Shown here piece after piece: positions 5,014-26,469 of a DNA stretch of 64,000 nt. Source of the DNA: Alphaproteobacteria bacterium (GTDB lineage: Bacteria; Pseudomonadota; Alphaproteobacteria; UBA2966; CAIVPW01); assembly GCA_947481575.1 (NCBI GenBank), contig CANKGV010000003.1:115934-179933 (forward strand). Reading direction: 5' to 3'. The position numbers and the translations under genes are program-made. The notes below the pieces were generated by a model that ran no database searches, was not told the origin of the DNA, and saw only the letters and a list, made by a program, of their open reading frames with translations. The stretch's first letter is position 1, and every line of letters starts with the position of its first letter.

Positions 5014-5292
5014 TCAGTCTGGCGCGGTGAACGCCCCCGCCACGGGCGCCACTTCGATCGAGGCGCCGGTGCGGGCGACGGCGAGGATGCCGTTGTCGCA
5101 GCGTGGAGCGCCGTCCGGCCCGGCCGCCTCTAGATTCACGACGATGAAGTCGCCGGCGCGGAGTACTTCGCGGCCGCCGTCGAAGTAGTGGGGGGCGAGC
5201 AAGTCTGGGGCGCGGTCGGCGCTGCGGAAGTGCCACAGGGTGAAGCCGTTGGCGTAACCCACCACGCTGAGCTGGCGCGGGTTGTAGGGCAT
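5014..5292 (-). CDS. Unknown phage-associated protein under repressor control, 92 aa
   Basis: Starts MPYNPRQLSVVGYANGFTLWHF; GAGGAGG lies 7 bp upstream of the ATG, which rules out a 9-codon extension. No transmembrane helix or signal is seen. Proteins of this look occur in alphaproteobacterial prophages, often near tail or capsid genes, without a known role. It is transcribed leftward from a strong promoter whose -10 lies inside the 19-bp operator at 5322-5340, so it should be switched on when the S24 repressor is removed. Its 3' end is repeated at 4647-4675. Confidence 0.7.
   Translation of the reverse strand: MPYNPRQLSVVGYANGFTLWHFRSADRAPDLLAPHYFDGGREVLRAGDFIVVNLEAAGPDGAPRCDNGILAVARTGASIEVAPVAGAFTAPD
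5022..5050 (+). repeat. Direct repeat copy B (29 bp, pairs with 4647-4675)
   Basis: This copy forms the 3' end of the 5014-5292 gene. The two copies lie 375 bp apart in the same orientation and bracket the 64-aa gene at 4766-4960. Confidence 0.7.
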
Positions 5293-5321
5293 CGGGTGCC
5301 TCCTCATTGCGAGAGGCACAA

Positions 5322-5350
5322 ACGATACACTACGTATCGTATCCGGTCAA
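5322..5350 (-). promoter_or_regulatory. Repressible promoter and 19-bp operator O1 (leftward)
   Basis: On the minus strand: TTGACC (5350-5345), a 17-bp spacer, then TATCGT (5327-5322). The -10 lies inside a perfect inverted repeat, ACGATAC-ACTAC-GTATCGT at 5322-5340. It drives the gene starting at 5292. The same 7-5-7 repeat layout recurs at 6173-6191 on the other side of the S24 repressor gene, so this is inferred to be a repressor operator. Confidence 0.75.
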
Positions 5351-5398
5351 TTCACGACGATTTGTAGAAGGCGGGAATCCGCCGCCGGCGTGGCGGAA

Positions 5399-6106
5399 TT
5401 AGCGGCGGTTGTACTTGCCGACGACGACGAGGGCCTGCTGCCACTCGGTGCGGGCGAGGTCGTAGTCCTTGGGCGGATTGTACTGGCGCACGGTCCACGC
5501 CTCGGTGGTCCAACGCATCATGCGTTTGATCAGGGCGGCGCGGGAGCCGTCGCTGTCGGTGGACAGCAGCAGCACGTCGTCGCCGGATTGCACCGGGCGC
5601 TGGGGGTGGACCAGGATCATGTCGCCCTGCTCGTAGCGCGGCTCCATGCTCTGGCCGATCACGTACACCGCGAACGCCCCGCGCACGCTCAACAGCGGCT
5701 CCGGGCGCTTGACCCAATCGATGGGGTCGCTGGTTACGATCATGCCGCTCTTGCCGCCTTCCGCACTGGCATAGACGGGCAGGTCGCTGTCGCCGGTGAG
5801 GACGGGGCGGCCGTCGATTTCCACTTCGTTCGGGCGCAGGCGGGCGAGGTCTTCTTCGGTGCGGGCTTCGCCTTCGGGCTCGACGTTGTAGGGGTCGCCG
5901 GTGCCGGTGAGCAGCCACACCCAGTTGGCGTTGAGGACGCCGGCGTAGCGGCGCGCCTGGGGCTCGCCGAAGCCGCGCAGGCCGGACTCGTGGGCGCGGT
6001 AGCTGACTTCGGGGACGCCCAGGTTGCGGGCGAATTCGGCGGCCGAGCGGAAGCTCGAACGCTCGCGCAAAAAGGCCAACCGGCCGTGGGGTGTTTCGAT
6101 TGCCAT
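5399..6106 (-). CDS. Phage repressor, helix-turn-helix plus S24 (LexA/CI-like) peptidase
   Basis: 235 aa. The N-terminal 70 residues form an XRE-type DNA-binding domain (SAAEFARNLGVPEVSYRAHE). The C-terminal half has the S24 Ser/Lys dyad: Ser in GQSMEPRYEQGDM and Lys in AALIKRMMRW. Such repressors cut themselves when RecA is activated by DNA damage, which induces the prophage. The auto-cleavage site is probably in the 110-120 region (ASAEGGKSG) but is not a clean Ala-Gly. It is flanked by matching operators at 5322-5340 and 6173-6191. GGGAGGG lies about 14 bp before the ATG. Confidence 0.9.
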   Translation of the reverse strand: MAIETPHGRLAFLRERSSFRSAAEFARNLGVPEVSYRAHESGLRGFGEPQARRYAGVLNANWVWLLTGTGDPYNVEPEGEARTEEDLARLRPNEVEIDGRPVLTGDSDLPVYASAEGGKSGMIVTSDPIDWVKRPEPLLSVRGAFAVYVIGQSMEPRYEQGDMILVHPQRPVQSGDDVLLLSTDSDGSRAALIKRMMRWTTEAWTVRQYNPPKDYDLARTEWQQALVVVGKYNRR

Positions 6107-6153: not shown

Positions 6154-6191
6154 TTGACAAACCCCGCTACGTACGATACGATCTGTACCAT
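6154..6191 (+). promoter_or_regulatory. Repressible promoter and operator O2 (rightward)
   Basis: TTGACA at 6154-6159, a 17-bp spacer and TACGAT at 6177-6182 make a near-ideal sigma-70 promoter reading toward 6257. The -10 overlaps ACGATAC-GATCT-GTACCAT (6173-6191): the left arm is identical to that of O1 and 5 of 7 bases match in the right arm. This is inferred to be the right operator of the S24 repressor. Confidence 0.75.
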
Positions 6192-6256: not shown

Positions 6257-6736
6257 ATGCCTGTGCGTATCCGGCGCAAACGCAAACCGCCGGCCGGTCC
6301 CGACTGCGGCACCCCGGAAGCGCAGGCTCGCAAGCGCGAGCTGGTGGGCGACGGCGACCCGGCGCTGGCGGGCTATCCGCTGGGCGTGCTGCTGGCGCGG
6401 CGGGTGATTACCCAAGACCAGCACGACGCGGGACGGCACTACGCGTATCTGGCCGGGCGGGTGCTGGGACGCACGCGGCCGTATCGTCCGGATTCGGGAT
6501 CAGGCGGCAGCACGGAATTGGGCGAGGGCGCACTGGAGGCCGTGGAGGACCGCTGGCGCGAAGCAGCGGCGGCGCTGCTGGCGGCGGGGCGGCGCGCCAA
6601 GGACGCGGTGGACAATGCAGCGCTGTTCGAGCGCTTGCCGGTGGCCGCCGAGCTTGGTGCGCTTACCGCCGGGCTCGATGCGCTGGCATTGTGGCGCCGC
6701 GGGCGGCGGCCGCTGTTCGCCGAGGCCGCCGAGTAG
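6257..6736 (+). CDS. Unknown phage-type protein, 159 aa
   Basis: ATG with GGGAGGGG 6 bp upstream. The N-terminus is very basic (MPVRIRRKRKPP), then a segment of the type GDGDPALAGYPLGVLLARRVI...DAGRHYAYLAGRVLGRT, which I associate with genes next to repressors in alphaproteobacterial prophages; no function is known to me. The C-terminal half is an Ala/Arg-rich helical region. It is the first gene after the repressor-controlled rightward promoter and so the first product expected on induction. A DNA-binding or early regulatory role is possible but unproven. Confidence 0.7.
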   Translation: MPVRIRRKRKPPAGPDCGTPEAQARKRELVGDGDPALAGYPLGVLLARRVITQDQHDAGRHYAYLAGRVLGRTRPYRPDSGSGGSTELGEGALEAVEDRWREAAAALLAAGRRAKDAVDNAALFERLPVAAELGALTAGLDALALWRRGRRPLFAEAAE

Positions 6737-6741
6737 GGCGG

Positions 6742-7164
6742 CTAGGCCGGACCCGGCACGGGAGGCACGCCGTCCGCTTCGGCGGCTTGGTTCAGCGCTT
6801 GGACGATCATGTTCCAGTGGGTGTTGGGCGCGCGGACCGACATCAGCATCGGGCCGAACATCGCGATCATCATGCCGGTGCCGGGAGCATCGGGCGTGGG
6901 GGTGATCGACAGGCTGGTGGGATCGGCCACCATTTCCATGTCGAGGGCTTCCGGCGCCTTGAGCAGCGTTGGATTGCGCAGGCCCCAGCCAGTACCGAGG
7001 CGGCAGAAGTGCGCCAGCATGCGCGACATCTGTTCGTTGGTGGCGGAGAACGAGAACTTCTCGCCCTTGCCGTTGGTGAGTTCGACGCCGAAGCGCGTGC
7101 CGTTGTAGCCGCCGCTGATGTCGACAACCTCGGGCCGGGTGAACAACGCTGCCTGGTCTGCCAT
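6742..7164 (-). CDS. Hypothetical protein, 140 aa
   Basis: Starts MADQAALFTRPEVVDISGGYNG with AAGGAACGG upstream. No signal peptide or transmembrane helix is clear, although the middle has a Met-rich hydrophobic stretch (GTGMMIAMFGPMLMSV). The family is not recognised. It converges on the 6257-6736 gene with only 5 bp between stop codons and diverges from the secreted protein at 7340. It may be a lysogeny-expressed cargo gene, since its direction differs from the late operon, or a host gene. Confidence 0.65.
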   Translation of the reverse strand: MADQAALFTRPEVVDISGGYNGTRFGVELTNGKGEKFSFSATNEQMSRMLAHFCRLGTGWGLRNPTLLKAPEALDMEMVADPTSLSITPTPDAPGTGMMIAMFGPMLMSVRAPNTHWNMIVQALNQAAEADGVPPVPGPA

Positions 7165-7339: not shown

Positions 7340-7840
7340 ATGCTTCGAGGCCTTGCCGCCGCCGCCGTTGCTGTGTGCCTGGGTATGACCGGGTTCGGCG
7401 CCGCGGCCGCGATCGTTCCGCCGCTGAAGTTTCAGACCGCGGTGGAGTTCGGCATCAGCAATGCCGAGCTGGATGTGCTGATGAAGACCCTGTTCGACGA
7501 GCACCCCGAGTTCGATGCCATCGATCCCAACTTCGGCAAGCGCAACATCGGTATCGGGGTGGTGGACCTGAACGGCGACGGGGTGGACGAACACCTGGTG
7601 CAGGTGATCTCCAGCTCCACCTGCATGTTCGGCTGCGTGACCTATGTGTTCCAGTTGCGCGACAGTAAATGGACCCGGATCGGGGCGATCAGCACCGGAA
7701 CGGTGCTCATTCTGCCGGACACCACGCCGGGCGCCACGTATTCCCTGATCCAGGGCGAGTACAACCAGCTGCGGTGGAACGGCGTGGGCTATGGCGGGTT
7801 CTGCCACGAGGTTGGCGTATGCGAGCCGGCGGGCCGCTGA
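7340..7840 (+). CDS. Secreted protein with FG-GAP-like calcium motif, 166 aa
   Basis: A signal peptide (MLRGLAAAAVAVCLGMTGFGAAAA) is followed by a mature domain containing DLNGDGVDEHL, a calcium-binding loop of the FG-GAP/EF-hand-like type, and paired cysteines (SSSTCMFGC and CHEVGVC) suited to the periplasm. No family is assigned. It lies inside the prophage interval but outside the late operon, with its own spacing, so it could be a lysogenic-conversion gene or a host gene trapped in the element. Confidence 0.7.
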   Translation: MLRGLAAAAVAVCLGMTGFGAAAAIVPPLKFQTAVEFGISNAELDVLMKTLFDEHPEFDAIDPNFGKRNIGIGVVDLNGDGVDEHLVQVISSSTCMFGCVTYVFQLRDSKWTRIGAISTGTVLILPDTTPGATYSLIQGEYNQLRWNGVGYGGFCHEVGVCEPAGR

Positions 7841-8173: not shown

Positions 8174-8851
8174 ATGCCCCCAGCCAGGGAACGGGATCCG
8201 TTTGCCGCGCGCGGGACGCCGGAAGCAGCCGTGGCGCCGGTTGCGGACCCCGGGCCCTCCACCGCCGAGCCGCCGGGCGGTTGGCAGTTCGCCGCCGGTG
8301 GCCGGGTGATCCTGTCCGGCCACGAGCCCTATCTGCACGCGCGCTTCGTGGATGCGCTGCACCGGTGCGAATCCGCCGACGCGGGCTACCGGTCGGTGAA
8401 CGCCAGCGGCGCCCTCGGCCGCTACCAGCTGACGCGAACCGGCGGGCTGCGGTCGGCGGGGATGGCGGACGGCTCGGGCAGGTGGACCGGCAAGTACGGC
8501 GTGCATGGCGCGGCGGAGTTTCTGGCCAACCCGGCGGCGCAGGAGTTGGCGCTCGAGGACTACATGCGCGCGATGGAAGGGTACAACCGGGCGGCGGGCA
8601 ACGACCGGTTCGTTGGCACCGCCGTCGCGGGCAAGGCCGGCCCGTTTGTCGTTACCGAAGCGGGATTGGCCGCTGCGGCGCACCGCGTTGGCCAGAGATG
8701 CGTCCGCCAGTTGCTGGACATTCTGCGCGCCAACGGCTGGCAGCACCCGGACGACCTGCCGGCGTTGGATCCGGACACCCGTGACCGGCTGCTGGCGGCG
8801 GAAACGCGTCTGCGCACGTTTGCCGCGGTGCCGTACCGCCACGCCGGATAG
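8174..8851 (+). CDS. Phage lysozyme/transglycosylase-like protein, 225 aa
   Basis: After a Pro-rich N-terminus of about 50 residues comes a lysozyme-like fold signature: FVDALHRCESAD (with a candidate catalytic Glu) and SGALGRYQLTRTGGLRSAGM, matching the G-x-Y-Q block of transglycosylases and muramidases. It probably cuts peptidoglycan, either as endolysin or as a virion-carried enzyme. GGAG sits 8 bp before the ATG. It is the first gene of the late operon, ahead of TerS, and far from the holin at 26053; the family call rests on motifs only. Confidence 0.7.
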   Translation: MPPARERDPFAARGTPEAAVAPVADPGPSTAEPPGGWQFAAGGRVILSGHEPYLHARFVDALHRCESADAGYRSVNASGALGRYQLTRTGGLRSAGMADGSGRWTGKYGVHGAAEFLANPAAQELALEDYMRAMEGYNRAAGNDRFVGTAVAGKAGPFVVTEAGLAAAAHRVGQRCVRQLLDILRANGWQHPDDLPALDPDTRDRLLAAETRLRTFAAVPYRHAG

Positions 8852-8906: not shown

Positions 8907-9335
8907 ATGACGCGTTGGACGAAGAGTCCGGCGGCGCGGCGGCGCGCGTTTCTCGTGGCGCTGGCGGCGACCGGCAACATCACGCTGGCGGCGGCGCGCG
9001 CGGACGTTCCGCGCCCGACGCTGTACGTGTGGCGCAAGCGGTTGCCGGAGTTCGCGGCGGCGTGGGCGGAAGCCCTGGAGACCGGTACCGACGCGCTGGA
9101 GGATGTGGCGGTGGATCGCGCGGTCGCGGGGACGCCTGAGCCGGTGTTCTACCAAGGCAGGCAGGTGGCGACGCAGACCAGGGTTTCCGACTCGCTGCTG
9201 ATGTTCCTGCTGAAGGCGCGGCGGCCGGAAAAGTTCCGGACCGGACCGGCGCTGGTGGGCGCGGACGGCAGGCCGGTCAAGGCGACCATCACGGTGACCG
9301 TCCGTCGCACGGACCACGATGACGACCGCGCTTGA
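8907..9335 (+). CDS. Terminase small subunit (TerS)
   Basis: 142 aa from the ATG at 8907, preceded by AAGGAAG. It has an N-terminal helix-turn-helix (AFLVALAATGNITLAAARADVPRPTLYVWRK), then a helical middle with DALEDVAVDRAV and a KARRPEKFR segment, all typical of phage small terminases that recognise the packaging site. The last 17 bp overlap the start of TerL, the standard arrangement. A longer frame from 8505 overlaps the lysozyme gene and is rejected. Confidence 0.85.
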   Translation: MTRWTKSPAARRRAFLVALAATGNITLAAARADVPRPTLYVWRKRLPEFAAAWAEALETGTDALEDVAVDRAVAGTPEPVFYQGRQVATQTRVSDSLLMFLLKARRPEKFRTGPALVGADGRPVKATITVTVRRTDHDDDRA

Positions 9336-10791
9336 GGTCCACCTCGGTCTGCAGGTGCACCGAAAGCAGGCGGTGGCGCTCGACACGACGGCCACCGAGG
9401 TGCTGTACGGCGGTGCCGCCGGGGGCGGCAAATCGCACCTGCTGCGGGTAGCCGCGGTGACCTGGGCGAACACGGTGCCGGGACTGCAGGTGTACCTGTT
9501 CCGCCGCCAACTCCCCGACCTGGTGAAGAACCACCTGGAAGGGCCGAAGGGGTTCCGTGCGTTGCTGGCGCCGTTCGTGGCCGCCCGCGTGGTGGAGATC
9601 GTCGAGCGCGAGATCCGCTTTCCCAACGGCGCGAAGATCTACCTGTGCCACTGCCGCGACGAGGCGGACCGGTTCGGCTACCAGGGCGCGGAAATCCACG
9701 TGCTGCTGATCGACGAACTGACCCACTTTACCGACCCGATGTACCGGTTCCTGCGCGGGCGCGTGCGGGCGGTGGGACTAGGCGGCGGCGGTCTGGCGCG
9801 TCCGGTGCTGCCGCGCATCCTGTGCGCGTCGAACCCCGGCAATATCGGCCACGCGTGGGTGAAGGCAGCGTTCATCGACAATGCCGTGCCGATGGCGCTG
9901 CGGCCGATGCCGGACGGCGAAGGCGGCATGGTGCGCCAGTACATCCCGGCGCGGCTCGACGACAACCCGTACATGACCGAGGACGATCCCACCTATCGCG
10001 CGCGGCTGCGCGGCCAAGGCGCGGCGGCCCTGGTGCGGGCGATGGAGGACGGCGACTGGTCGGTGGTGGACGGCGCGTTCTTCGACTGCTGGGCGACCGC
10101 CCGGCACGTAGTCCTGCCGTTCCGCATTCCGGCGTGGTGGCTGCGGTTCCGCGCGTTCGACTGGGGCGCGGCGGCGCCGTTCTCGGTGGGCTGGTGGGCG
10201 GTGGCGGGGGAAGACCTGGCCCTGCCGGGCGGTAGCACCATCCCGCGCGGGGCGCTGGTGCGATACCGGGAATGGTATGGGGCGGCGGCGCCCAACGTGG
10301 GCCTGAAGCTGACCAACGAGGCGATCGCCGCCGGCATCGCGGCGCGCGAGGCCGGTGAGCCGATCGCCTACGGGGTCGCCGACCCGAGCATTTTCCGCAG
10401 CGACGGCGGGCCGTCGATCGCCGAGCAGATGGCGCGGCGCGGCATCCGCTGGCGGCGCGCCGACAACCGCCGCGTAGCCAGGGCCGGGCCGATCTCAGGC
10501 TGGGACCAAGTGCGCCAGCGGCTCGTGGGCGACGGCGACGGCCGGCCGATGCTGGTGTGCTTTGCGACCTGCACGGACTCGATCCGCACGATCCCGGCGC
10601 TGCAACACGACGCCGGCAACGCGGAAGACCTGGACACCAATGGCGAAGACCACGCCGCCGACGAGTGGCGCTACGCGTGCATGAGCCGGCCGTGGATCCG
10701 CGGGCGTCCCGTCGCCCCGCAGAGCCCGCGCGCGCCCACGTTCAACGAACTGATTGCCCAGCACCGCCAACAACGAGAGGACGACCGATGA
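9319..10791 (+). CDS. Terminase large subunit (TerL)
   Basis: 490 aa, typical length. The ATPase domain has Walker A GGAAGGGKS (about residues 32-40) and Walker B VLLIDELTHF (about 130-139). A nuclease domain begins around RAFDWGAAAPFS, with further acidic sites at GVADPSIF and NAEDLDTNGEDHAADEWRY. It drives DNA packaging into the prohead and cuts the concatemer. TerS overlaps its start and the portal ATG overlaps its stop (ATGA), showing translational coupling. Confidence 0.95.
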   Translation: MTTALEVHLGLQVHRKQAVALDTTATEVLYGGAAGGGKSHLLRVAAVTWANTVPGLQVYLFRRQLPDLVKNHLEGPKGFRALLAPFVAARVVEIVEREIRFPNGAKIYLCHCRDEADRFGYQGAEIHVLLIDELTHFTDPMYRFLRGRVRAVGLGGGGLARPVLPRILCASNPGNIGHAWVKAAFIDNAVPMALRPMPDGEGGMVRQYIPARLDDNPYMTEDDPTYRARLRGQGAAALVRAMEDGDWSVVDGAFFDCWATARHVVLPFRIPAWWLRFRAFDWGAAAPFSVGWWAVAGEDLALPGGSTIPRGALVRYREWYGAAAPNVGLKLTNEAIAAGIAAREAGEPIAYGVADPSIFRSDGGPSIAEQMARRGIRWRRADNRRVARAGPISGWDQVRQRLVGDGDGRPMLVCFATCTDSIRTIPALQHDAGNAEDLDTNGEDHAADEWRYACMSRPWIRGRPVAPQSPRAPTFNELIAQHRQQREDDR

Positions 10792-12581
10792 CCGACGAGA
10801 GCGACGCCGACACCGACCCGCGGGCGCTGGCCACCCATTGGCTGGCGGAGCTGGAGGCGGCGGGCAAGGCCGAAGCCAAATGGCGCGACGACGCCCGGCG
10901 TGTGCTGGAGGTGTACCGCGACGACAGCGATGGGCGGCGCCGCGCGCGCTTCAACATCCTGTTCAGCAACGTGCAGACGCTGGCGCCGGCGGTGTATGCC
11001 GGGGTGCCGCGGCCGGACGTGCGGCGGCGCTTCCGCGATGCCGACCCGGTGGCGCGGCGCGCGGCCGAGACCGTGGAGCGGGCGCTGGCCTATGGGGCGG
11101 ATGCAGGCGACCTGGACGCCGGCCTGCGCGCGGTGGTGCACGATGCGCTTCTGACGGGGCGCGGCGTGGCGCGGGTGCGCTATGTGCCGCGGTTTGCCGA
11201 AGCGGGCACCCGCGTGCCGTGTCTGGTGACGTACCAGCCGGCGGGGCCGGGGGCCGATGACTTTGCCCGGCGCGGCGGGGAGCCGGTGTATTTGCGGGCG
11301 GACACGCGCGACGTGGTGGCCGACCCGGAGTTCGACGGCCAGGGGCCGTTCGTGGCAGACGCGGGCGAGCAGGTCGCGGCCGAGGCGGTAACGTGCGAGG
11401 CGGTGCACTGGGACGACTTCCGCGTGGACCCGGCGCGGTCGTGGGACGAGGTGCGCTGGGTGGCGTTCCGCGCCCATCTCACCCGCGCCGAACTGGTGGA
11501 CGCGTTTGGGCCGGAGCGCGGTGCGGCGGTGCCGATCGTGGCGGCGGAGGCGGACGGGCCCGCCCGCGGCAATCATGCCGAGGTGTGGGAGGTGTGGGAC
11601 CGCGAGTCGCGCACGGTGATCTTTGTTGCGCCGGCGTATGCCGGTGGGGTGCTGCGGGTGGAGGACGATCCGTTGGGGCTGGCGGGGTTCTTTCCGTGCC
11701 CGCGGCCGTTGTACGCGATTGCCACGAGCGGCAGCCTGGTTCCGTACCCGGAATACCTGGTCTATGAGGACCAGGCGCGGGAGCTGAACGAAGTCACGCG
11801 CCGCATCGAGGTGCTGACCAAGGCGCTGAAGCTGCGCGGCATCTATGACGCGGCGCAGCCGGAGATCGCCGAGCTCCTTTCCGCCGACGACAACAAGATG
11901 ATTCCGTCGGAGAACTTCTTGGCGCTGGCGGAGCGTGGCGGCTTGGACAAGGCGGTGCAATTTGCGCCGGTGGAGATGGTGGCGGCCGTGCTCGCGCAAC
12001 TCCATCAGAGCCGCGACCGCATCAAACAGACGATCTACGAGATCACCGGCCTCGCCGACATTCTGCGCGGCGCGACGCAGGCCAGCGAGACGGCCACGGC
12101 CCAGAGCATCAAGGCGCGCTGGGGCTCGGCCCGCCTAGCGGAGCGGCAGCGCGAGGTGCAACGGCTGATCCGCGACGTGTTCCGGCTGCAGGCGGAGGTG
12201 ATCGCCGAGCGGTTTAGCGCCGAAACGCTGCGCGCGATGACCGGGGTGGCGGTGGACGATGCGGTGTTGGCGGTGCTGCGCTCGGACGGCCTGCGCGGGT
12301 TCCGCATCGACGTGGAAACCGACGCGACGGCCGCGGGGGACGCGGCGGACGACCAGCGGGCGGTGACGGAGCTGCTGTCGGGCGTGACGTCGTTCGTGCG
12401 CGGGATCGCGCCGCTGGTGGCGGCTCCCAGCAACCCCCAAGGGGTGATCCCGGTCGAGGCGGCCAAGGCGCTGCTGATGGCGGCGGTGCGCCGCTTTCGC
12501 CTCGGGCGCGAGGTGGAGGATGCGCTGGACACAATCGGCAAGGCGCCGCCAGGGCATGCAGACCGTGCGCTACCGCTATGA
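10788..12581 (+). CDS. Phage portal protein
   Basis: 597 aa from the ATG at 10788, which overlaps the TerL stop and has GAGAGG upstream. The N-terminus is acidic (MTDESDADTD), followed by a helical block (ARFNILFSNVQTLAPAVYAGVPRPD) and a long C-terminal helical region (QSRDRIKQTIYEITGLADILRGATQASET), the pattern of podovirus-type portals that start with a membrane- and DNA-facing stem. Position right after TerL and length agree. It forms the dodecameric ring through which DNA enters the head. Confidence 0.88.
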   Translation: MTDESDADTDPRALATHWLAELEAAGKAEAKWRDDARRVLEVYRDDSDGRRRARFNILFSNVQTLAPAVYAGVPRPDVRRRFRDADPVARRAAETVERALAYGADAGDLDAGLRAVVHDALLTGRGVARVRYVPRFAEAGTRVPCLVTYQPAGPGADDFARRGGEPVYLRADTRDVVADPEFDGQGPFVADAGEQVAAEAVTCEAVHWDDFRVDPARSWDEVRWVAFRAHLTRAELVDAFGPERGAAVPIVAAEADGPARGNHAEVWEVWDRESRTVIFVAPAYAGGVLRVEDDPLGLAGFFPCPRPLYAIATSGSLVPYPEYLVYEDQARELNEVTRRIEVLTKALKLRGIYDAAQPEIAELLSADDNKMIPSENFLALAERGGLDKAVQFAPVEMVAAVLAQLHQSRDRIKQTIYEITGLADILRGATQASETATAQSIKARWGSARLAERQREVQRLIRDVFRLQAEVIAERFSAETLRAMTGVAVDDAVLAVLRSDGLRGFRIDVETDATAAGDAADDQRAVTELLSGVTSFVRGIAPLVAAPSNPQGVIPVEAAKALLMAAVRRFRLGREVEDALDTIGKAPPGHADRALPL

Positions 12582-12795
12582 CCCCGCCGTGGGGCGGGTG
12601 GTGCCGGCGGGCCCGGGTGCGCGGGCGGCGGGGCCGTTCGTGCGCGGCGATCTGCCGGGCTACCGCTCGCCGGTGACCGGGCGCTGGATCGAAGGCCGCC
12701 GGGCGCGCCGCGAGGACCTGGCCGCTGCGGGGTGCCGCGCAGTGGACCCCGGCGAGCGGCCGCCGTTGTTTCCGGGGCAGCGCAATCCCAGATGA
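12556..12795 (+). CDS. Small phage protein with GRWIEGRRARREDL motif, 79 aa
   Basis: Starts MQTVRYRYDPAVGRVVP, overlapping the portal end by 26 bp. The core, DLPGYRSPVTGRWIEGRRARREDLAAAGCR, matches a motif in small proteins that recur between portal and capsid genes in podovirus-like phages; their role is unknown, possibly structural. Very basic. Confidence 0.7.
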   Translation: MQTVRYRYDPAVGRVVPAGPGARAAGPFVRGDLPGYRSPVTGRWIEGRRARREDLAAAGCRAVDPGERPPLFPGQRNPR

Positions 12796-18588: not shown

Positions 18589-19896
18589 ATGGGAAAATCG
18601 ACACCTTCGCCGCCGCCGGCACCCGATCCGGCGGCCATCGCCAGCGCCCAGGCGCAGGCCAATCTGGCCGCCGCCAACCAAGCCGCGATCTTGAACCGGG
18701 TGAACGAGATCACGCCGACCGGATCGAGCTTTTACGTGCCGCCGGGCCGCGCCGACCTGTACGGCACGCTGCCCGGCTACGCGACCGACCCGGCGGGATT
18801 GCCGGCGCAGGCCAATGGGTTTGTGCAGCCGCCGGCGCCGCCGGAGCGGATCGCCAATCCGCAAAAGGCGGCTTTGGCGCAGCAGATCGCGGCTTGGCGG
18901 GCATCGCTGCCCACCAACGACGCGGGTGAGACGATGGACGATCCGTTTGGCCGCATCGCCCCGGCGGAGCAGGCGTGGGCGGCGATGCCGGACACGATTC
19001 CGGGGTCCACTGGTCCGGCCGTGTTCGTGCGCGATGGCCGGGTGGTGGATACGCAGGGCAACGCGGTGCACGACAGCCGCTATGAGCAGCACGGTGCGCC
19101 GGTTGCCGGGGTCGCGTACGGCGCTTCCGCGGGGCCGCAGGCCGGTGGCGCGGCCCCCGCGCCGGCTTCTGCGGCCGCGGGCGACTTGCCGTGGACGCGG
19201 GTGACGTATTTGGACCCGGCGGGGCAGGGCAACCTGGACCGCACCCAGGCGCTGTCGGCGGCGTTGCTGGGCCTGGGGCAGGACCAGATCGGGCGGATCG
19301 CGGCGAGCGTGGGGCGGCCGCTGTCGGCGGAGGTACTGCCGCCGGCGCCGGGGACGGAGGACTTTGGCGCCGGCCGCCAGCGGGTGGAGGACGCGCTGTA
19401 CCGCCGGGCTACCAGCCGCCTGGACCCGATGTTCGCTCACGAGCGCGATGGGCTGGAACAGCGCCTGGCCAACCAGGGCATCACCCAGCAATCCAACCCC
19501 GAGGCGTACGCCCGGGCGGTGGACACCTATGCCCGGGCGCGCACCGACGCCTATGACGAGGCGCTGGCGGCGGCGGTGGCGGGCGGCGGCGCGGAGCAAT
19601 CGCGGCTGTTCGGCCAGCAGACGGCGGCGCGCCAGAACGCGCTGCAGGAAGCCCTAGCGCTGCGCAACCAGCCGATCAACGAACTGGCGGCGTTGCTGGG
19701 CGCTTCGCCCGGCGTGGCGATGCCGCAGTTTCAGCCGTTCGCGCCGGTGACGGTGGGTGCTGCGGACACCACCAGCCCGGCCCTGGCCGCGTACCAGGGC
19801 CAGGTCGCCGCGCACAACGCCCAGGCCCAATCCCAATCGGCGCTCACCCACGACCTGTTCGGTCTGGGCGCGAAGTTGCTGCCGTTGATGCTGTAA
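18589..19896 (+). CDS. Probable internal virion / ejection protein, 435 aa
   Basis: The Pro/Ala-rich N-terminus (MGKSTPSPPPAPDPAAIASA) leads to a Gln-rich helical C-terminal half with YRRATSRLDPMFAHERDGLEQRLANQGITQQSNPEAY, a motif shared by phage proteins that follow tail hubs. No transmembrane segment is seen. Podovirus genes at this position often encode proteins injected with DNA; that role is inferred. AGGAG at 18578-18582 precedes the ATG. Confidence 0.65.
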   Translation: MGKSTPSPPPAPDPAAIASAQAQANLAAANQAAILNRVNEITPTGSSFYVPPGRADLYGTLPGYATDPAGLPAQANGFVQPPAPPERIANPQKAALAQQIAAWRASLPTNDAGETMDDPFGRIAPAEQAWAAMPDTIPGSTGPAVFVRDGRVVDTQGNAVHDSRYEQHGAPVAGVAYGASAGPQAGGAAPAPASAAAGDLPWTRVTYLDPAGQGNLDRTQALSAALLGLGQDQIGRIAASVGRPLSAEVLPPAPGTEDFGAGRQRVEDALYRRATSRLDPMFAHERDGLEQRLANQGITQQSNPEAYARAVDTYARARTDAYDEALAAAVAGGGAEQSRLFGQQTAARQNALQEALALRNQPINELAALLGASPGVAMPQFQPFAPVTVGAADTTSPALAAYQGQVAAHNAQAQSQSALTHDLFGLGAKLLPLML

Positions 19897-19910: not shown

Positions 19911-20783
19911 ATGCACGAAGAAACCGAAACTCCCGCGCCGTCGATCGAGCAGACGATGGGCGAGGTGTATGACCGCGTGACGGCGGAAGAACCCGGCACC
20001 GAAGACGCAACGCCCGCGCCGGACGCGGCGCCGGAGGCGGAGGACGCGCGCGAGCCCGATGCGCCGGAGCACTGGCCCGAGGCGGACCGCGCGGCGTTTG
20101 CCGGGCTGGCGGCGCCGGGGCGCGAGTTTCTGTTGCGCCGCCACCGCGAGATGGAGGCGGACTACACCCGCAAGACCCAAGAACTGGCGGGCCACCGCCG
20201 CGCGGCCGAGGCATTTGCCGAAGCGGCAAAGCCGTACCAGGCGATGATCGCGGCGGAGGGCGCTACGCCGCTGACCGCGTTCCGCGCGCTGCTGCATACC
20301 GCCCACGTGCTGCGCACCGGCACCCCGGCCGAAAAGGCGCAAAGCCTGGCGGCGGTGGCGCAGCGGTTTGGCGTGGCGCCCGGTGCCGCACCCTTGCCGA
20401 TAGCGCAGCCGGACCCGCGCCAGCGCGCGCTGGCCGAGGAGCTGGCGCGTTTTCGCGGCGCGACGGACGCCGCGGGCAAGCCGCAGCATCCGCACTTCGA
20501 CCAGGTGGCGGGCGAGATCGGTGCGCTGCTGATGGCGGGCCGCGCGGCAACGGTGGCGGATGCCTATGAGCGGGCGGTGTGGGCGCACCCGGAAACCCGG
20601 GCGCTGCAATTGGCGGCGGCGGACGCGGCGCGGGCCGATGCGGCACGCCGCCGGGCGAGCGAGGCGCGCCGCTCGGTCAACGTGCGGGCGGGCGCGGCGC
20701 CGGGGCAGCGCACGCGCGGCGCATCGATCGAGGAAACCATGGCCATGGTCTACGACCGCATGGCCGGCAGGGAGGCCGACTGA
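19911..20783 (+). CDS. Scaffold-like phage protein with the same motif at both ends
   Basis: 290 aa, acidic N-terminus (EETETPAPSIEQTM) and long helices: HWPEADRAAFAGLAAPGREFLLRRHREMEADYTRKTQE is typical of scaffold-like proteins in alphaproteobacterial phages. A short motif is present twice: SIEQTMGEVYDRV at residues 11-23 and SIEETMAMVYDRM near the C-terminus. The gene is downstream of the hub instead of beside the capsid, which is unusual for a scaffold. GGAGG precedes the ATG. Confidence 0.65.
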   Translation: MHEETETPAPSIEQTMGEVYDRVTAEEPGTEDATPAPDAAPEAEDAREPDAPEHWPEADRAAFAGLAAPGREFLLRRHREMEADYTRKTQELAGHRRAAEAFAEAAKPYQAMIAAEGATPLTAFRALLHTAHVLRTGTPAEKAQSLAAVAQRFGVAPGAAPLPIAQPDPRQRALAEELARFRGATDAAGKPQHPHFDQVAGEIGALLMAGRAATVADAYERAVWAHPETRALQLAAADAARADAARRRASEARRSVNVRAGAAPGQRTRGASIEETMAMVYDRMAGREAD

Positions 20784-20784: not shown

Positions 20785-22314
20785 ATGCCTTTCAACGGCA
20801 CCGGCTTGTTCGCCCGCGTCCACAACTGGGTGCAGGACAAAGGCAACGGCATCAAGATCAACGCTTCCCGCATGGACGAGGAGTTCGACGGCATCGCCAC
20901 GGGTTTGTCTGGCGCGCTGCTGAAGGACGGCCAGCAGGCGGCGGCGGCCGACCAGCCCATGGGCGGATTCAAGCACACCAACGTGGCGGTGGCGGGCGCG
21001 CGCAACCAGTACGCGGCGGTTGCCCAAGTGCAGGACGGCGCGTTCGGCTATGCCGCGGCCGGCGGCACGGCCAATGCGCAGACGCTGACGCTCTCGCCCG
21101 CCATCACCGCCTATGCCGCCGGGCAGACGTTCCGCTTTCTGCCGGTGGGCACCAACACGGGGGCCGCCACGCTGGCGGTTTCGGGCCTCAGCGCCAAGGC
21201 GATCAAGAAGGCGGGCGGCTACGGCGTGCTGGTGGGGCTGGACCCCGGCGACCTGCAGGGCGCGGTGGCGGCGGAAGCGATCTACGACGGCACGCAGTTC
21301 ATTCTGTTGTCGCCGCCTTGGTCGGCGATGGTGCAGGCCAACCTGCTCGACAACCCGATGGGGGAGGTGTGCCAGCGCGGCAGCACGGCGACCGCCGACG
21401 ACACCTATGGCGGCGCGGACCGCTGGTACAGCCTCACGCAGTCGAACGCGATCACCGCCAGCCAAGGCACCGACGGCGAGGCGGGCACGCCGTTTTTCGA
21501 CCGCATCAACCAAGACCATGCCTCGGCCCAGCGCATGGGCCGCGCGACGATTTTGGAATCCGCCAAGTGCCGCCACTTGCGCGGCCAATCCGCCACGCTG
21601 CAGATGCGCGTGCGCCTCGGCGCCAGCGCCAACCTGCGCATCGCCATTGTGGAATGGACCGGCACCGCCGACAGCGTGACCTCGGATGTGATCAACGACT
21701 GGACCAGCGGCACCTATACCGGCGGCAACTTCTTTCTCGGCAGCAATTTGAACGTGCTCGGCGTGGCGCAACTTAGCCTGACCGCCAACACCTGGACCGA
21801 CACCGTGCCACTCACGGTGACCGTGGGCGCCGCCATGAACAACCTGCTGGTCGTGTACTGGACCGAAGGGACGGTGGCGCAGAATGTGAAGCTCGATGCT
21901 TCGCAGCGGCGACTGGTGGCGGGGAATGTCGCGGGGCCGTTCGTGCCGCGCGAGTACGGCGAGGAGTTGCGGCGGTGCCAGCGGTATTACTGGCGCGTCA
22001 ATTCCAACGGGACGAACACATATTTCTGTGCAGGCATCACCAGTGGAACAACGCTGGCGAATGGGTGGGTGCAGAAGTCAGTGCAAAGCCGAACTATCTC
22101 CGGGACTTTGAGTAGCTCTGGCACACCCAGCGACTATCGCATCTGGTCCCCGGCCGGGCAGCTCGCGTGTTCAACCAATCCGCCGGTCCTCGCCCATGAA
22201 ACTGATCGATCGATGGCCATCCAGATGCAGACCACGGGGCTCACAGATGTGCAGGTATGTGTTCTCGGATTTACAGGAACCAACGGATGGGTAGGGGTAA
22301 GTTGGGAATTGTAG
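20785..22314 (+). CDS. Tail fibre/spike protein, 509 aa
   Basis: Starts at 20785 (GGGAGG nearby). The N-terminus MPFNGTGLFARVHNWVQDKGNGIKINASRMDEEFDGIATGL is a virion-attachment head found in podovirus fibres, followed by a linker with GGFKHTNVAVAGARNQYAAVAQVQ and then a beta-sandwich-like domain (from about residue 190) of the type seen in receptor-binding tips. It is the last obvious structural gene and probably decides host range. Confidence 0.85.
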   Translation: MPFNGTGLFARVHNWVQDKGNGIKINASRMDEEFDGIATGLSGALLKDGQQAAAADQPMGGFKHTNVAVAGARNQYAAVAQVQDGAFGYAAAGGTANAQTLTLSPAITAYAAGQTFRFLPVGTNTGAATLAVSGLSAKAIKKAGGYGVLVGLDPGDLQGAVAAEAIYDGTQFILLSPPWSAMVQANLLDNPMGEVCQRGSTATADDTYGGADRWYSLTQSNAITASQGTDGEAGTPFFDRINQDHASAQRMGRATILESAKCRHLRGQSATLQMRVRLGASANLRIAIVEWTGTADSVTSDVINDWTSGTYTGGNFFLGSNLNVLGVAQLSLTANTWTDTVPLTVTVGAAMNNLLVVYWTEGTVAQNVKLDASQRRLVAGNVAGPFVPREYGEELRRCQRYYWRVNSNGTNTYFCAGITSGTTLANGWVQKSVQSRTISGTLSSSGTPSDYRIWSPAGQLACSTNPPVLAHETDRSMAIQMQTTGLTDVQVCVLGFTGTNGWVGVSWEL

Positions 22315-22347: not shown

Positions 22348-22830
22348 CTAGCCCCGATCCGGAAAACACTCCGCCATCACCATGTCGACTTCCTGGCCTT
22401 CCCAGAGGTAGTGGCGGGCGCGCCGGCCGGCGATCTGCATTCCGGACTTCTCGAACAGCCGTAGCATCGGCACGTTCGTTGCCATCGTTCCCGCGGTGAT
22501 CTTGCGGGCGCCGGATTCGCGGATCGCCTGCACCCACGCTGTGAGGCCGTGCCCGTGACCCTGCGCGTCCCGCTCGCCAATGAGGATGGCGAGGTCGGCG
22601 ACGCCGTTGCGCGCGTCCACGGTGGCGGTGATGTTGCCGATGTGGCGGCCGTCGAGCTCGATCGCCCAGAAGCGGTCGGGCGCGGCGATGCTTTCCCAGT
22701 ACGCGCGGCAAGAGGCGAGGGTGTGGCGGCGGTGGCGCTGCTCGGAATACCGGGTCACGACCGGATCGTTGAGCCACGACACATAGCGTTCGGTGAGGTG
22801 GCGTTCCGCGAAGGGGACGAGGCGCAGCAT
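22348..22830 (-). CDS. GNAT acetyltransferase (RimJ-like)
   Basis: 160 aa in the Acetyltransf_3 pattern: MLRLVPFAERHLTERYVSWLNDP, then FWAIELDGRHIGNITATVD, GERDAQGHGHG and the final ITAGTMATNVPMLRLFEKSGM. It is the only gene in the distal part of the element on the minus strand, which marks it as inserted cargo. It diverges from the oxygenase at 22957 with a 126-bp gap. The substrate may be a small molecule such as an amino sugar, but the sequence does not tell. Confidence 0.85.
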   Translation of the reverse strand: MLRLVPFAERHLTERYVSWLNDPVVTRYSEQRHRRHTLASCRAYWESIAAPDRFWAIELDGRHIGNITATVDARNGVADLAILIGERDAQGHGHGLTAWVQAIRESGARKITAGTMATNVPMLRLFEKSGMQIAGRRARHYLWEGQEVDMVMAECFPDRG

Positions 22831-22920
22831 GGCGCGAACCTAGCACGGCTGTTGCGCCGTGCGACGGTTTGCAGCGGTCCGGCGGGGGGTCAGACTCTGG
22901 CGCGGTTCCCCGGGCTAAAC

Positions 22921-22950
22921 TAAGGTTGGGCCGCACGAATAAGGTTGGGC
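22921..22950 (+). repeat. 11-bp direct repeat upstream of the oxygenase
   Basis: TAAGGTTGGGC occurs at 22921-22931 and again at 22940-22950, 19 bp apart, directly before the ATG at 22957. The second copy supplies the AAGG used as ribosome-binding site; the first may be a slip duplication. Confidence 0.5.
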
Positions 22951-22956
22951 AACGGC

Positions 22957-23796
22957 ATGCGCGCAGAAGTCATTCCCGAGTCACTGGTCGTCCGCATCCC
23001 TGGCGCGGCACTGATGAACGGCGACGCGGCGATGCTGGCCCGGGTGAAGGCGGTGGTGGCGACCGGCAAGGTGGTTCTGGCGGAAGGTTTGATCTCGCGC
23101 GAGACCGCCGACCAGTTGCGCCGCGAAGCGGTGGCGTTCGCCAAGACGGCCGCGCCGGTGCGCCGCACCCATTATTCGCGCGGCTGCGCCGATATTCTGC
23201 ACCACGACGAAAACGGCTTCCGGCTGCGCCAGTGGCTGGCGGCGCTGCGCGCGGGAGTGAAGCCGCGCTACCGCAAGATCGTCAGCCACAAGTTCCTGCC
23301 GTGGAACGCCTATGGCGCGGCGATCCAATCCACTGCTGCCGCGATGATCCATCTGCGCAACGCGCTATATGGCATGGACCCGGACTTCACGTTGAAGCCG
23401 GGCGGCGAATATTTCACCGTGCTTCAGGTGCAGCAGTACCCGAAGGGCGGCGGGTTCCTGAGCAAACATTCCGATGCCGAGTTCCATCTGCGCCAGGGGC
23501 TTTCCACGGCGCTTGAGCTGATCCTGCTGCTCAGCACCAAACACGAGGACTACGAGCAGGGCGGACTGTTCATTGAAACCGGCGGGCGCACGTATCTGGT
23601 GGACGATGTCGCCAAGCCCGGCGACGTGGTGATCTATGACGTGAAGCACCCGCACGGCTGCGCGCCGGTCGATCCGGGCGAGCAACCCGATCCGGAGGGC
23701 TGGCGGGGCCGCTGGGTGATGCTCACGCCGCCGTATAGCGTGAAGAAGTATCTCGACGACGCCCGCGCGGGCGCAGTGCAGGGCGCGGCAGCCTGA
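22957..23796 (+). CDS. 2-oxoglutarate/Fe(II) oxygenase-like protein
   Basis: 279 aa. The double-stranded beta-helix is indicated by LQVQQYPKGGGFLSKHSDAEFH, containing the H-x-D pair of the iron site, then the distal His in VKHPHGCAPVD and an Arg in RGRWVMLTPP that would bind 2-oxoglutarate. The facial triad looks complete. The start is taken as the ATG at 22957; the in-frame TTG at 22945 sits directly on the AAGG site. Substrate unknown; hydroxylation of a surface sugar, lipid or peptide fits the neighbouring acyltransferase. The next gene overlaps its stop. Confidence 0.75.
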   Translation: MRAEVIPESLVVRIPGAALMNGDAAMLARVKAVVATGKVVLAEGLISRETADQLRREAVAFAKTAAPVRRTHYSRGCADILHHDENGFRLRQWLAALRAGVKPRYRKIVSHKFLPWNAYGAAIQSTAAAMIHLRNALYGMDPDFTLKPGGEYFTVLQVQQYPKGGGFLSKHSDAEFHLRQGLSTALELILLLSTKHEDYEQGGLFIETGGRTYLVDDVAKPGDVVIYDVKHPHGCAPVDPGEQPDPEGWRGRWVMLTPPYSVKKYLDDARAGAVQGAAA

Positions 23797-25970
23797 CCAC
23801 GGCGCGCGGGGCGTATCGGCCTGCCATTGACGGGCTGCGTGCGGTCGCCGTCGTTTCCGTCATCCTGTTTCACGCGGGTTTCGGCGCCTTTGGCGGCGGA
23901 TACGTTGGGGTCGACGTCTTTTTCGCCATCAGTGGCTTCCTGATCACGTCGCAAATCGCGTCCGACTTGGACGCGGGGACGTTCTCCCTCGCCGGTTTTT
24001 ATGAGCGCAGGGCGCGGCGCATCTTGCCCGCCATGTTCGTCGTGCTCCTCGCCTGCCTGCCTGCGGCGTGGCTCTGGATGCTGTCGAGCCAGATGAAGGA
24101 GTTCTCCGAGAGTCTGATCGGGGTTGCGACCTTCACGGCGAACATTCTGTTCTGGCGAATATCCGGCTACTTCGAGTCGGAGACCGCGCTCAAGCCGCTG
24201 ATCCACTTCTGGAGCCTGTGTGTCGAGGAGCAGTACTACATCCTGTTCCCGATATTTCTGATGGTCGCTTGGCGCGCGGGCAGGGCTTGGGCGGCTGCAT
24301 TGGTTGCCGGTGCGGCGCTGGCAAGCTTCGGGATCGGGCAGTGGGGCTCGACCCATGCGGAGCCGGCGGCCTTCTATCTGCTACCGGCGCGCGGCTGGGA
24401 GATTCTGGCGGGGGCGCTGCTTGCCCTCGGGTATGCCAAGTTGGATTGGCTGAAGCGCAATACGCTGGTCAACGAGGGGGCCAGTGCCGCGGGCCTAGTG
24501 TTGGTCGGGTACTGCGTGTTTGCCTTCGACAAGCGGACCCCAACCCCCGGCATCTACACGGCGGTTCCGGTCCTGGGAACGGTCCTGCTGCTCCAGTTCG
24601 CGACGGCGGGCACGCTGGTCGGCAGAATGCTCGGGACCAAGGCGTTCGCGGGCATCGGCCTTGTCAGCTACAGCGCCTATCTGTGGCATCAGCCGCTGTT
24701 TGCGTTCGCGCGATTGAGAAGTCCGGGGGTGCCAGGTGAGGGTCTTCATCTGGTCCTGGCGGCCACGGCATTTGTTCTCGCCTACTTCAGTTGGAAGTAC
24801 GTCGAAACACCCTTCCGGCGGCGGGGAAACTTCACGCGTCAGCAGATCGTCGCCTACGGTGCGTCGGGGCTTGTCGCCTTTGCCGTGTTCGGATTGGCAG
24901 GAATGCTGACTGCGGGGTTCACATTTCGGTTCAACGAGGGCGACCGGTACTTGGCGGAGCTGCAATCGAGCGTCGCTGGCGACTACGTGAAGAAGCGGTT
25001 TGAGGCGTTGTCGCTAAAGGAGTTTGACGACTCTGATCCGCGCAAGAAGATCCTAATTCTCGGCGACAGTTACGCGCAGGACTTGGTGAATGCGCTGTAC
25101 GAAACCGAGTTCGCCAAGCGCGTCCAGGTTTCCACCCATCAGATCGGGAATGGCTGCGGCAATCTATTTCTGCCGCAGACGGGCGCGATCCGGAACGGAT
25201 GTGACGGCAAGGGCCTCTATGACAATCCGATGGTCCGGAATCTCATGCTCCGGGCCGACGAGATTTGGCTGGCATCGAACTGGCCGGCCCGGCAAGTCGA
25301 ATCCATCGACCAAATCGTGCGCGGGGCGCGGGAGTTTTCGGGCAATCCGGTCAGGGTATTTGGCCGCAAGCAGTTTGGACCCTACACACTCAACCGATTG
25401 CTTGCGCTGGACCAAGACCAGCGGATCGCGCTCCGAAATCGCGTGGACGACGAGGCGCTTCGTACGAACGAGGCGATGCGGTCCCGGTTGGGCGCCGGTA
25501 CGTTCATCGACGTTGAGGCCCTGCTGTGCGGGGACGACCTTCCGCTGTGCCGGTTGTTCACCGAGGCCGGCGACTTGATTTCGTTTGATGGCGCACATCT
25601 GACGAAGGCCGGGGCGGTGTACTACGGCCAGAGGTTGGCCACCCAACCGGAATTGCGCGACTTTCAGGATCGCGATAGCGCCTGCTTGGCGTCCGCCGGT
25701 TTGCACCGGCACCCCAACCCTATTCACAGGAGACCGCGATGGCTGCAGAGCCTCGAGCGGGCGCGCTTGCGCTCGATACGCGTGCATTGGAAGTCGCCAC
25801 CCGCGCCGAGGCGCGCGTGCGCGGCGTGGAGAAAGGCATCGAACGCCTGGACCAGCAGGTTGGGCAATTGCGGGCGGAGAACACCGCCCAGCACGCGGCG
25901 ACCAGCGCCAAGTTCGACCAGGGCATGGCGCGCCTGCACGACCGGATGGACGACCACGGGCGGGCGATGA
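23793..25970 (+). CDS. OafA-type surface acyltransferase with SGNH domain
   Basis: About 725 aa. Membrane acyltransferase_3 domain: YRPAIDGLRAVAVVSVI at the start, then FAISGFLITSQ, RRARRILPAM and SLCVEEQYYILFPI, with about ten transmembrane helices to residue 370, then a periplasmic SGNH domain (ILGDSYAQDLVNAL; DGAHLTKAGAVYY). No ATG, GTG or TTG precedes YRPAIDGLR after the last upstream stop; CTG at 23793, overlapping the previous TGA, is the best start. After about residue 625 the frame runs on for some 100 residues, overlapping the next gene by 232 bp, as if the natural stop was lost. Such enzymes O-acetylate lipopolysaccharide or other surface glycans. Confidence 0.8.
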   Translation: MTTARGAYRPAIDGLRAVAVVSVILFHAGFGAFGGGYVGVDVFFAISGFLITSQIASDLDAGTFSLAGFYERRARRILPAMFVVLLACLPAAWLWMLSSQMKEFSESLIGVATFTANILFWRISGYFESETALKPLIHFWSLCVEEQYYILFPIFLMVAWRAGRAWAAALVAGAALASFGIGQWGSTHAEPAAFYLLPARGWEILAGALLALGYAKLDWLKRNTLVNEGASAAGLVLVGYCVFAFDKRTPTPGIYTAVPVLGTVLLLQFATAGTLVGRMLGTKAFAGIGLVSYSAYLWHQPLFAFARLRSPGVPGEGLHLVLAATAFVLAYFSWKYVETPFRRRGNFTRQQIVAYGASGLVAFAVFGLAGMLTAGFTFRFNEGDRYLAELQSSVAGDYVKKRFEALSLKEFDDSDPRKKILILGDSYAQDLVNALYETEFAKRVQVSTHQIGNGCGNLFLPQTGAIRNGCDGKGLYDNPMVRNLMLRADEIWLASNWPARQVESIDQIVRGAREFSGNPVRVFGRKQFGPYTLNRLLALDQDQRIALRNRVDDEALRTNEAMRSRLGAGTFIDVEALLCGDDLPLCRLFTEAGDLISFDGAHLTKAGAVYYGQRLATQPELRDFQDRDSACLASAGLHRHPNPIHRRPRWLQSLERARLRSIRVHWKSPPAPRRACAAWRKASNAWTSRLGNCGRRTPPSTRRPAPSSTRAWRACTTGWTTTGGR

Positions 25971-26056
25971 ACCGGGTGGTGCTGGGCGTGGCGGGCACGC
26001 TGGTGGCGCTGCTCGCCGGGTGGCTGTGGGACGTGATTCACGGTGCCATCCTGTGA
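25739..26056 (+). CDS. Small coiled-coil membrane protein of the lysis module, 105 aa
   Basis: ATG with AGGAGA 5 bp upstream. A long amphipathic coiled coil (EARVRGVEKGIERLDQQVGQLRAEN) precedes one C-terminal transmembrane helix (VVLGVAGTLVALLAGWLWDVI). The 3' end overlaps the holin GTG start (GTGA). The layout suits a second holin, antiholin or spanin-like partner; the function is not proven. The first 232 bp overlap the run-on of the acyltransferase frame, but its ribosome site and coupling to the holin support this frame. Confidence 0.7.
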   Translation: MAAEPRAGALALDTRALEVATRAEARVRGVEKGIERLDQQVGQLRAENTAQHAATSAKFDQGMARLHDRMDDHGRAMNRVVLGVAGTLVALLAGWLWDVIHGAIL

Positions 26057-26469
26057 CCGCGCTGCTGAGCGCGGTGATCCCCGACATCGTCGGCAAGGTG
26101 TTGGACCGGGTGCTGCCCGATCCGGCTGTGCGCGAACGCGCCAACCAGGAACTGCTGCGGTTGACCCAAGAGGGGGAACGGGCCGAGACGCGCACCCAGC
26201 TTTCGGCGATTCTGGCCGAAGCACAGTCGGCGGACCGGTGGACCGCGCGGGCGCGGCCCGCGTTCCTGTACGTGATGTACGCGGTGATTCTGTTGTGCTT
26301 CGGCGGCGGGGTGATCGGCATCTGGTGGCCGGCCCAGGTGGCGACCGCGGCGCAGAACATCGCCAATCTGCTGGCGGCCATTCCGGACAGCCTGTGGTGG
26401 CTGTTCGGCACCGGGTACCTTGGGTACACGGGCGCCCGCAGCTTGGAGAAGCTGAAGGCCAAGAACTAG
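26053..26469 (+). CDS. 3-TM holin of gene-transfer-agent type
   Basis: 138 aa from the GTG at 26053. An amphipathic N-terminus (TALLSAVIPDIVGKVLDRVLPD) and the charged stretch NQELLRLTQEGERAE lead to RARPAFLYVMYAVILLCFGGGVIG and further hydrophobic segments up to LWWLFGTGYLGYTGARSLEKLK. This matches the GTA_holin_3TM family, membrane pore formers used for lysis by alphaproteobacterial phages and gene transfer agents. It ends the element 18 bp from tRNA-Val. Confidence 0.85.
   Translation: MTALLSAVIPDIVGKVLDRVLPDPAVRERANQELLRLTQEGERAETRTQLSAILAEAQSADRWTARARPAFLYVMYAVILLCFGGGVIGIWWPAQVATAAQNIANLLAAIPDSLWWLFGTGYLGYTGARSLEKLKAKN

Follow-up and report, generated by a model that had tools for sequence, protein, structure and literature searches.

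The phage-like locus studied here raises the question of whether it is a prophage that can no longer move or a particle-producing module that its bacterial host has kept for its own benefit. The locus lies at positions 5014-26469 of the stretch of DNA that we analysed (the window, 64,000 nucleotides), which is positions 115934-179933 of contig C3 in a 2.45-Mb high-GC genome, here called G000. Relatives and neighbours of this genome point to Alphaproteobacteria. We called genes by Pfam and PHROG profile matches, scanned the whole of G000 by profile searches, and compared it to seven genomes of the same family (G001-G007), with 96 genomes in the searches of relatives. Our answer, which we consider probable but well short of certain, is that the locus is an immobilised (cryptic) temperate prophage with an intact particle module, located beside a tRNA-Val gene and without an integrase, attachment (att) repeats or replication genes.

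The locus is a compact phage module of 21.5 kb, consisting of an S24-type repressor and a packaging, head, short-tail, fibre and holin set (Table 1). A gene encoding a 92-amino-acid (92-aa) protein and the repressor gene are on the minus strand, and are followed by a mostly rightward operon. The order to the right of the repressor is four uncharacterised genes, the terminase genes TerS and TerL, the portal, a small protein, a DUF2927 protein and the major capsid protein (MCP); then come further structural proteins, including an SU10-type adaptor, the fibre, three cargo genes, a small membrane open reading frame (ORF) and, last, the holin. An intact tRNA-Val gene, which a preliminary description of this DNA did not mention, has its 3' end 18 bp beyond the holin stop codon. 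In TerL, the motifs are intact as read directly (Walker A GGAAGGGKS, Walker B LLIDE). That description held that every function from repressor to holin can be named. We agree for packaging, head, tail, fibre and holin, but the genes at 6257, 6742, 7385, 8231, 12556, 12861, 15370 and 19911 have no firm function, and lysis is incompletely named, as no gene in the locus is certain to encode an endolysin. Similarly, the region from 22.3 to 26.0 kb holds moron-like cargo rather than particle genes.

Within the locus, Pfam and PHROG recognised no integrase, replication, excision or Cro gene, as had been claimed earlier, and a recombinase unrecognised by these profiles is possible. The profile search for tyrosine integrases (PF00589) found none on the 184-kb contig C3 and six in the genome, all on other contigs; no genome-wide search for serine recombinases was made. 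Two of these recombinases are Xer-like by our reading, and contigs C17 and C28 carry P4-type integrases. We rejected the idea that one of the six is the element's own integrase, as none has related phage early genes alongside. Capture by the dif/XerCD system was also rejected, as the window has no dif-like site. In the 66 kb to the left of the tRNA gene, there is no repeat of its 3' end (attR) of at least 13 bp, only matches of 11-12 bp.

Related phages suggest what the element once contained. Among 28 viral records that have a related TerL, 18 also encode an integrase. The record L238 (= G146) has an integrase at its end, then a repressor, approximately 8 kb of early genes including primase-type genes, then TerS, TerL and structural genes. 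A primase-type gene also precedes TerS in L020, and the 40-kb phage MW202489 has polymerase, helicase and nuclease genes. Judged by gene order, the window element is the L238/G146 plan minus its integrase side and replication block. Given these integrase-bearing records and this plan, a prophage with its integrase lost, one of two explanations proposed earlier, is the best fit. The portal (34-36% identity) and MCP (43-51%) families are common to the element, the phages Mx8 and Mx9, MW202489 and temperate IMG/VR relatives (L238/G146). Phages of the Mx8/MW202489 type also have in common with it the order TerL-portal-MCP-adaptor-tail and a GNAT-like gene in the structural region. However, these relatives are 40-54 kb long and have replication genes, with an integrase in the temperate ones, whereas the window locus lacks both. 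The portal is 34% identical to that of Myxococcus phage Mx8 and 36% to that of MW202489, and no GenBank phage record has a portal more than 60% identical. For other proteins, identity to free or distant phages reaches 65% (TerL), 64% (holin) and 74% (MCP, in a metagenome-assembled genome of another lineage).

The tRNA-Val gene adjoins gph and glmU in all seven same-family genomes, and in five of them (G004, G001, G007, G003 and G005) pieces of the element lie between dnaE2 and tRNA-Val. In G004 and G001, the 92-aa gene runs into the fibre N-terminus (~69% and ~58%), and the holin is complete (69%). In G007 and G003, what remains is the 92-aa gene, fused to the 3' part of the holin gene; G005 has the 92-aa gene only, and G006 has no remains at this site. 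None of these scars has an integrase at either edge. The gap between holin and tRNA is 256 bp in G004 and 348 bp in G001, compared to 18 bp in G000. The G000 fibre matches the G004 and G001 scars over its first ~150 amino acids and differs in the remainder; fibre C-termini and the genes from fibre to holin vary among copies. The portal gene occurs in none of the seven genomes and in 3 of the 96 searched, G000 included.

The junction of dnaE2 and the 92-aa gene is common to two genera, and G001 and G003 both have a similar small ORF separating holin from tRNA. Because these features are shared, we infer a single ancestral resident, already integrase-less, rather than repeated integrations. The element probably sat at tRNA-Val in this state before these genera split, and the tRNA gene is its probable ancestral attachment site. 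Replacement of the tRNA T-arm was rejected as a mark of integration, since T-arm types follow the host genera (g1+g4, g2+g3), with or without the element. The scars themselves are at L082:8998-9231, L083:3490-3684, L084:13989-14241, L086:11455-11682 and L087:8585-8788. Within the 92-aa gene, all left breakpoints fall among the first ~20 codons, whereas those on the right are spread out, from the fibre up to the holin end. Our guess is that such one-sided clustering might come from in situ cutting by the terminase near the 92-aa gene.

In G002, genes of the element are found on a 9.6-kb contig (C36, L108:1-9611) that has no integrase. They form two groups flanking a conserved host block, uvrB-X-aspC: one consists of the 92-aa gene, the repressor (71%) and the 6257 gene, the other of DUF2927, TerS and TerL (72%). 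With the block removed, the contig is collinear with the window. This may be a different or a rearranged place, explained by captured host DNA, rearrangement, two copies or a chimeric contig. Where it is complete, the repressor is 62-63% identical in G004 and G005, in which a repressor-DUF2927 pair occurs on C2 and C7 of G004 and C32 of G005 (L129:9974-11534, L131:9506-10462, L130:9889-10873). A different terminase lies near the pair in two of these three loci; on this comparison, the pair is one that moves between phage types. G003 has a second complete holin (64%) at the start of contig C17 (L116:44-454), approximately 750 bp from a tRNA-Thr gene, which is probably part of another prophage of the same phage family. 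Because repressor-DUF2927 and holin fragments occur at such other loci, this family was mobile in these hosts.

Like a cryptic prophage, then, the element is phage-derived, keeps some modules, is missing functions for autonomous spread and has decayed forms in relatives. Of what a functional temperate podovirus-type prophage has, the repressor and the packaging, structural and lysis set are present (the endolysin being uncertain), and the integrase with its att sites and the replication module are absent. The condition of the genes, however, weighs against an immobilised prophage. Each of the 24 tested genes (6,564 codons in total) has an open frame, in agreement with the preliminary description, while 1% of simulated neutral change introduces approximately 5 stop codons into 6,564 codons, and 5% breaks approximately 14 of the 24 genes. 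The open frames imply either selection or a recent arrival of the G000 copy; if the element has been grounded since before the genera split, something kept them intact. Between genomes, the ratio of nonsynonymous to synonymous change (pN/pS) is 0.31-0.45 for TerL (0.31), the repressor, the 92-aa gene, the 6257 gene and the holin, with TerS looser (0.67); the host genes glmS, a PurL-like gene and rpsD, compared between G000 and G002, have 0.27-0.29. In host codon adaptation, the structural genes rank at the 63rd-100th percentile, MCP highest, and they give no sign of decay. Purifying selection is not decisive, because a once-mobile phage gives an equal signal. Nor does identity demonstrate vertical descent, because free phages come nearly as close in TerL, holin and MCP, at levels not far from those seen between host genera. 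For the same reason, and because synonymous sites look saturated, we rejected equal divergence of element and host as proof of such descent.

This condition leads to the other explanation proposed earlier, a domesticated, short-tailed particle-maker resembling a gene transfer agent (GTA). In this scenario, integrase and replication genes were lost in the ancestor of the family; structural and lysis genes then persisted in G000 because particles filled with cellular DNA are of benefit to the host, and other genera deleted the element. We consider this unlikely, and we are similarly doubtful of its more specific form, in which a podovirus-type GTA-like element was endogenised ancestrally at tRNA-Val, remained complete and selected in G000, and was lost from sister genomes by repeated one-sided deletions. 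The scars indicate an old, integrase-less residence at the same locus, and the gene set is complete and open despite that age; both facts speak for the proposal. Selection on TerL is within the host-like range, and the high codon adaptation, highest in MCP, resembles that of GTA genes, for which translational selection has been reported (PMC9765227), but is not specific to GTAs. G002, which belongs to another genus, keeps the repressor, 92-aa gene, TerS and TerL without an integrase on its contig. However, a classical GTA would be expected to be completely conserved across relatives, and this locus is complete in one family genome, with the portal missing from every other member checked. Patchy distribution had been named in advance as evidence against domestication, and it is what we found. 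Fibre tips and cargo vary as they do in active phages. Moreover, relatives in the MCP family are mostly phages of about 37-44 kb, so the locus may well fit into its own head, unlike a classical GTA.

GTAs have been defined by caudoviricete-derived particle proteins, full endogenisation and vertical co-diversification with the host, and further by a genome too large for its own head, packaging of mostly random host DNA and delivery to other cells (PMC9662315). Caudoviricete-derived proteins are present (TerS, TerL, portal, MCP, adaptor, fibre and holin). As to endogenisation, there are no integrase on the contig, no att repeat and scars in relatives, yet related copies are mobile elsewhere. Vertical co-diversification is not what we see, with a complete locus in 1 of 8 family genomes and a G002 TerL at 72% compared to 65% in free phages. 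For the ratio of genome to head size, the guide is that phages with an MCP of this family mostly have about 40 kb or more. The GTA-type holin (PF11351), which was said to fit either explanation, indeed does not discriminate: the family is common in phages, many at 53-64% identity, and we rejected it as support for a GTA. The GTAs RcGTA (Rhodogtaviriformidae) and BaGTA (Bartogtaviriformidae) likewise have a phage-derived structural locus without an integrase, a PF11351 holin and an alphaproteobacterial host. In contrast to them, the window locus is not conserved across relatives. By PHROG assignment, its portal, MCP and terminase fall with those of Mx8-like phages, and only the holin family is shared. 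Should the locus be a particle-maker that has been retained, Alphaproteobacteria would have a short-tailed element of the GTA-like kind; an element of Faecalibacterium has been called the first podovirus-like one (FpGTA paper, 2026). If it is only a grounded prophage, it is ordinary, yet its successive scars in several genera clearly document how a prophage decays.

A recent arrival would also account for open frames. An integrase-bearing phage might have re-entered tRNA-Val in G000 and lost its integrase end in a rearrangement of the left flank, being too young to have decayed; we think this quite improbable. The left flank of G000 is indeed unlike that of all relatives (cytochrome c and LysR genes stand where relatives have dnaE2, which is now at 61.5-64.7 kb), the holin is closer to the tRNA than in sister copies, whose cargo also differs, and the G003 fragments near tRNA-Thr show that the family is mobile. 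Against this, no attR-like repeat is left, the left-edge gene is identical in kind to that of scars in other genera, and no genome has an integrase at either edge. We give very little credence to the idea that this is a live phage, or an element dependent on a helper, with its integrase and replication genes encoded at another place in the genome. The C28 island, for example, encodes a P4-type integrase and a Prim-Pol/DUF3987 helicase (C28:3617-8255) without structural genes. However, it is on a separate contig with host-type genes beside it, nothing that we saw links it to the locus, and islands of this sort are often found as satellites or remnants in their own right. The preliminary description had also pointed to a replication module of the same phage just outside as an observation that would count against domestication, and no such module is near the locus.

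An immobilised prophage of this kind could nevertheless make particles. The S24 repressor would hold the rightward operon off by binding CGATAC-n5-GTATCG operators, and DNA damage would presumably inactivate or cleave it. On induction, terminase, proheads, short tails and holin would be made, and the holin, together with an uncertain endolysin, would lyse the cell. Without excision or replication, the terminase might package in situ from the chromosome, taking up the element and adjoining or other host DNA. Such particles could transduce neighbouring or random host DNA, while the element would be unable to spread as a phage. In situ packaging is thus how the element could work like a GTA without being one. 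The intact G000 copy would either have stayed under selection or have been renewed by a related phage. The element is in any case a compact structural set of short-tailed-phage type without replication genes, complete in one genome.

Table 1. Features of the phage-like locus and its right border, in window coordinates.
Feature	Position	Strand	Evidence or remark
92-aa phrog_18004 protein	5014..5292	-	phrog_18004, E 8e-8; left edge of element
Perfect palindrome CGATAC-n5-GTATCG	5323..5339	.	Upstream of 92-aa gene; sole exact match in window
S24-type CI-like repressor	5399..6106	-	Peptidase_S24 PF00717, E 7.5e-11; phrog_4, E 4.6e-23
Imperfect operator-like site	6174..6190	.	Between repressor and 6257 gene; 2 mismatches
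First gene of divergent (lytic-side) operon, no function assigned	6257..6736	+	~62% in G002; 40% in viral contig L018
Uncharacterised ORF	6742..7164	-	Without Pfam or PHROG match
Uncharacterised ORF	7385..7840	+	No Pfam match above cut-off, no significant PHROG
Uncharacterised ORF	8231..8851	+	phrog_16954 only, E 0.0012
Terminase small subunit (TerS)	8907..9335	+	phrog_4044, E 1.6e-32
Terminase large subunit (TerL)	9319..10791	+	phrog_979, E 2.4e-36
Portal protein	10788..12581	+	phrog_12082, E 1.6e-163
Small conserved protein between portal and MCP	12556..12795	+	33-67% in viral contigs, equivalent place
DUF2927 protein	12861..13688	+	PF11150, E 2.3e-12
Major capsid protein (MCP)	13841..14794	+	phrog_9953, E 1.8e-89
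Virion structural protein after MCP	14806..15297	+	phrog_29386
Conserved phage protein, no firm function	15370..15915	+	phrog_20268, E 1.8e-13
SU10-type adaptor / tail protein	15912..16610	+	PF24175 (SU10_adaptor), E 2.4e-10; phrog_6013
phrog_5107 protein	16626..18155	+	Positional equivalent in MW202489 annotated as phage stabilization protein
GNAT-like phage protein	18157..18579	+	phrog_4470, E 3.1e-37
Virion structural protein	18589..19896	+	phrog_6121, E 3.6e-38
Scaffold candidate (weak)	19911..20783	+	phrog_3927, E 0.003; viral-contig homologues between portal and MCP
Tail fibre	20785..22314	+	phrog_4492
Cargo: GNAT acetyltransferase (-), 2-oxoglutarate (2OG)-Fe(II) oxygenase (+), acyltransferase-SGNH (+)	22348..25970	.	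PF13302, PF13640, PF01757, PF19040; phrog_6705
Small coiled-coil and membrane-helix ORF	25739..26056	+	Overlaps acyltransferase end; read directly; no Pfam match above cut-off
Holin, GTA_holin_3TM	26053..26469	+	PF11351, E 1.6e-24; phrog_3427
tRNA-Val(CAC), intact	26488..26562	-	3' end faces element

The palindrome upstream of the 92-aa gene is a probable, predicted repressor operator, and G002 has the palindrome GATACGTATC at the equivalent place. The imperfect site between the repressor and the 6257 gene is, taken alone, not above chance (1.6 expected per window when two mismatches are tolerated). The 8231 ORF is possibly lysozyme-like, and the 25739 ORF is a possible lysis accessory. Among the cargo genes, codon usage is atypical in the acyltransferase, at the 3rd percentile of host genes; the coding frame of this gene continues upstream past the first ATG, and at the 3' end the gene overlaps a further ORF.

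To the right, at 61484-64000 and beyond the window, G000 has a DnaE2/ImuB/ImuA cassette, which in relatives borders the element. The rearranged left flank of the element in G000, different from that of all relatives, contains cytochrome c, LysR and pentapeptide-repeat protein genes. The small C28 island (L458:3617-9688) resembles a phage satellite or remnant; besides the P4-type integrase and the fusion of Prim-Pol with a DUF3987 helicase, it may encode a TerS-like protein.

The 92-aa gene, which probably encodes a virion protein, has homologues in 24 of the 96 relatives, and in L110, L112 and L113 it directly follows an MCP gene. It led us to a different, integrase-less locus of podovirus type, represented by L113:1462-16193 (in G042), L110, L112, L169-L179 and, in IMG/VR, L387-L456. 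We found no description of it in the literature searched, and it is missing from the window's family (f1). Its gene order is an opposite-strand repressor, a 134-aa gene, portal (Head-tail_con, PF12236), a protein in the scaffold position, MCP (PF19821), phrog_18004, tail tube, tail B, fibre, TerL, a small membrane protein and a holin-type protein, with no integrase recognised among the called genes. The closest named cultured phage is Pelagibacter phage EXVC031P Hodr (44%). Approximately 17 of the 96 relatives carry the MCP of this second locus, usually in single copy and with 46-72% identity; they all belong to different alphaproteobacterial families and include genomes of 0.9-1.4 Mb. In several genomes, the flanks are pyrD/DUF952 or lysK/BCAT. 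In IMG/VR, it appears as proviruses of 16-18 kb with constant order, many apparently from isolate genomes. We regard this second locus as a strong candidate for an ancient short-tailed GTA-like element, and a better one than the locus in the window.

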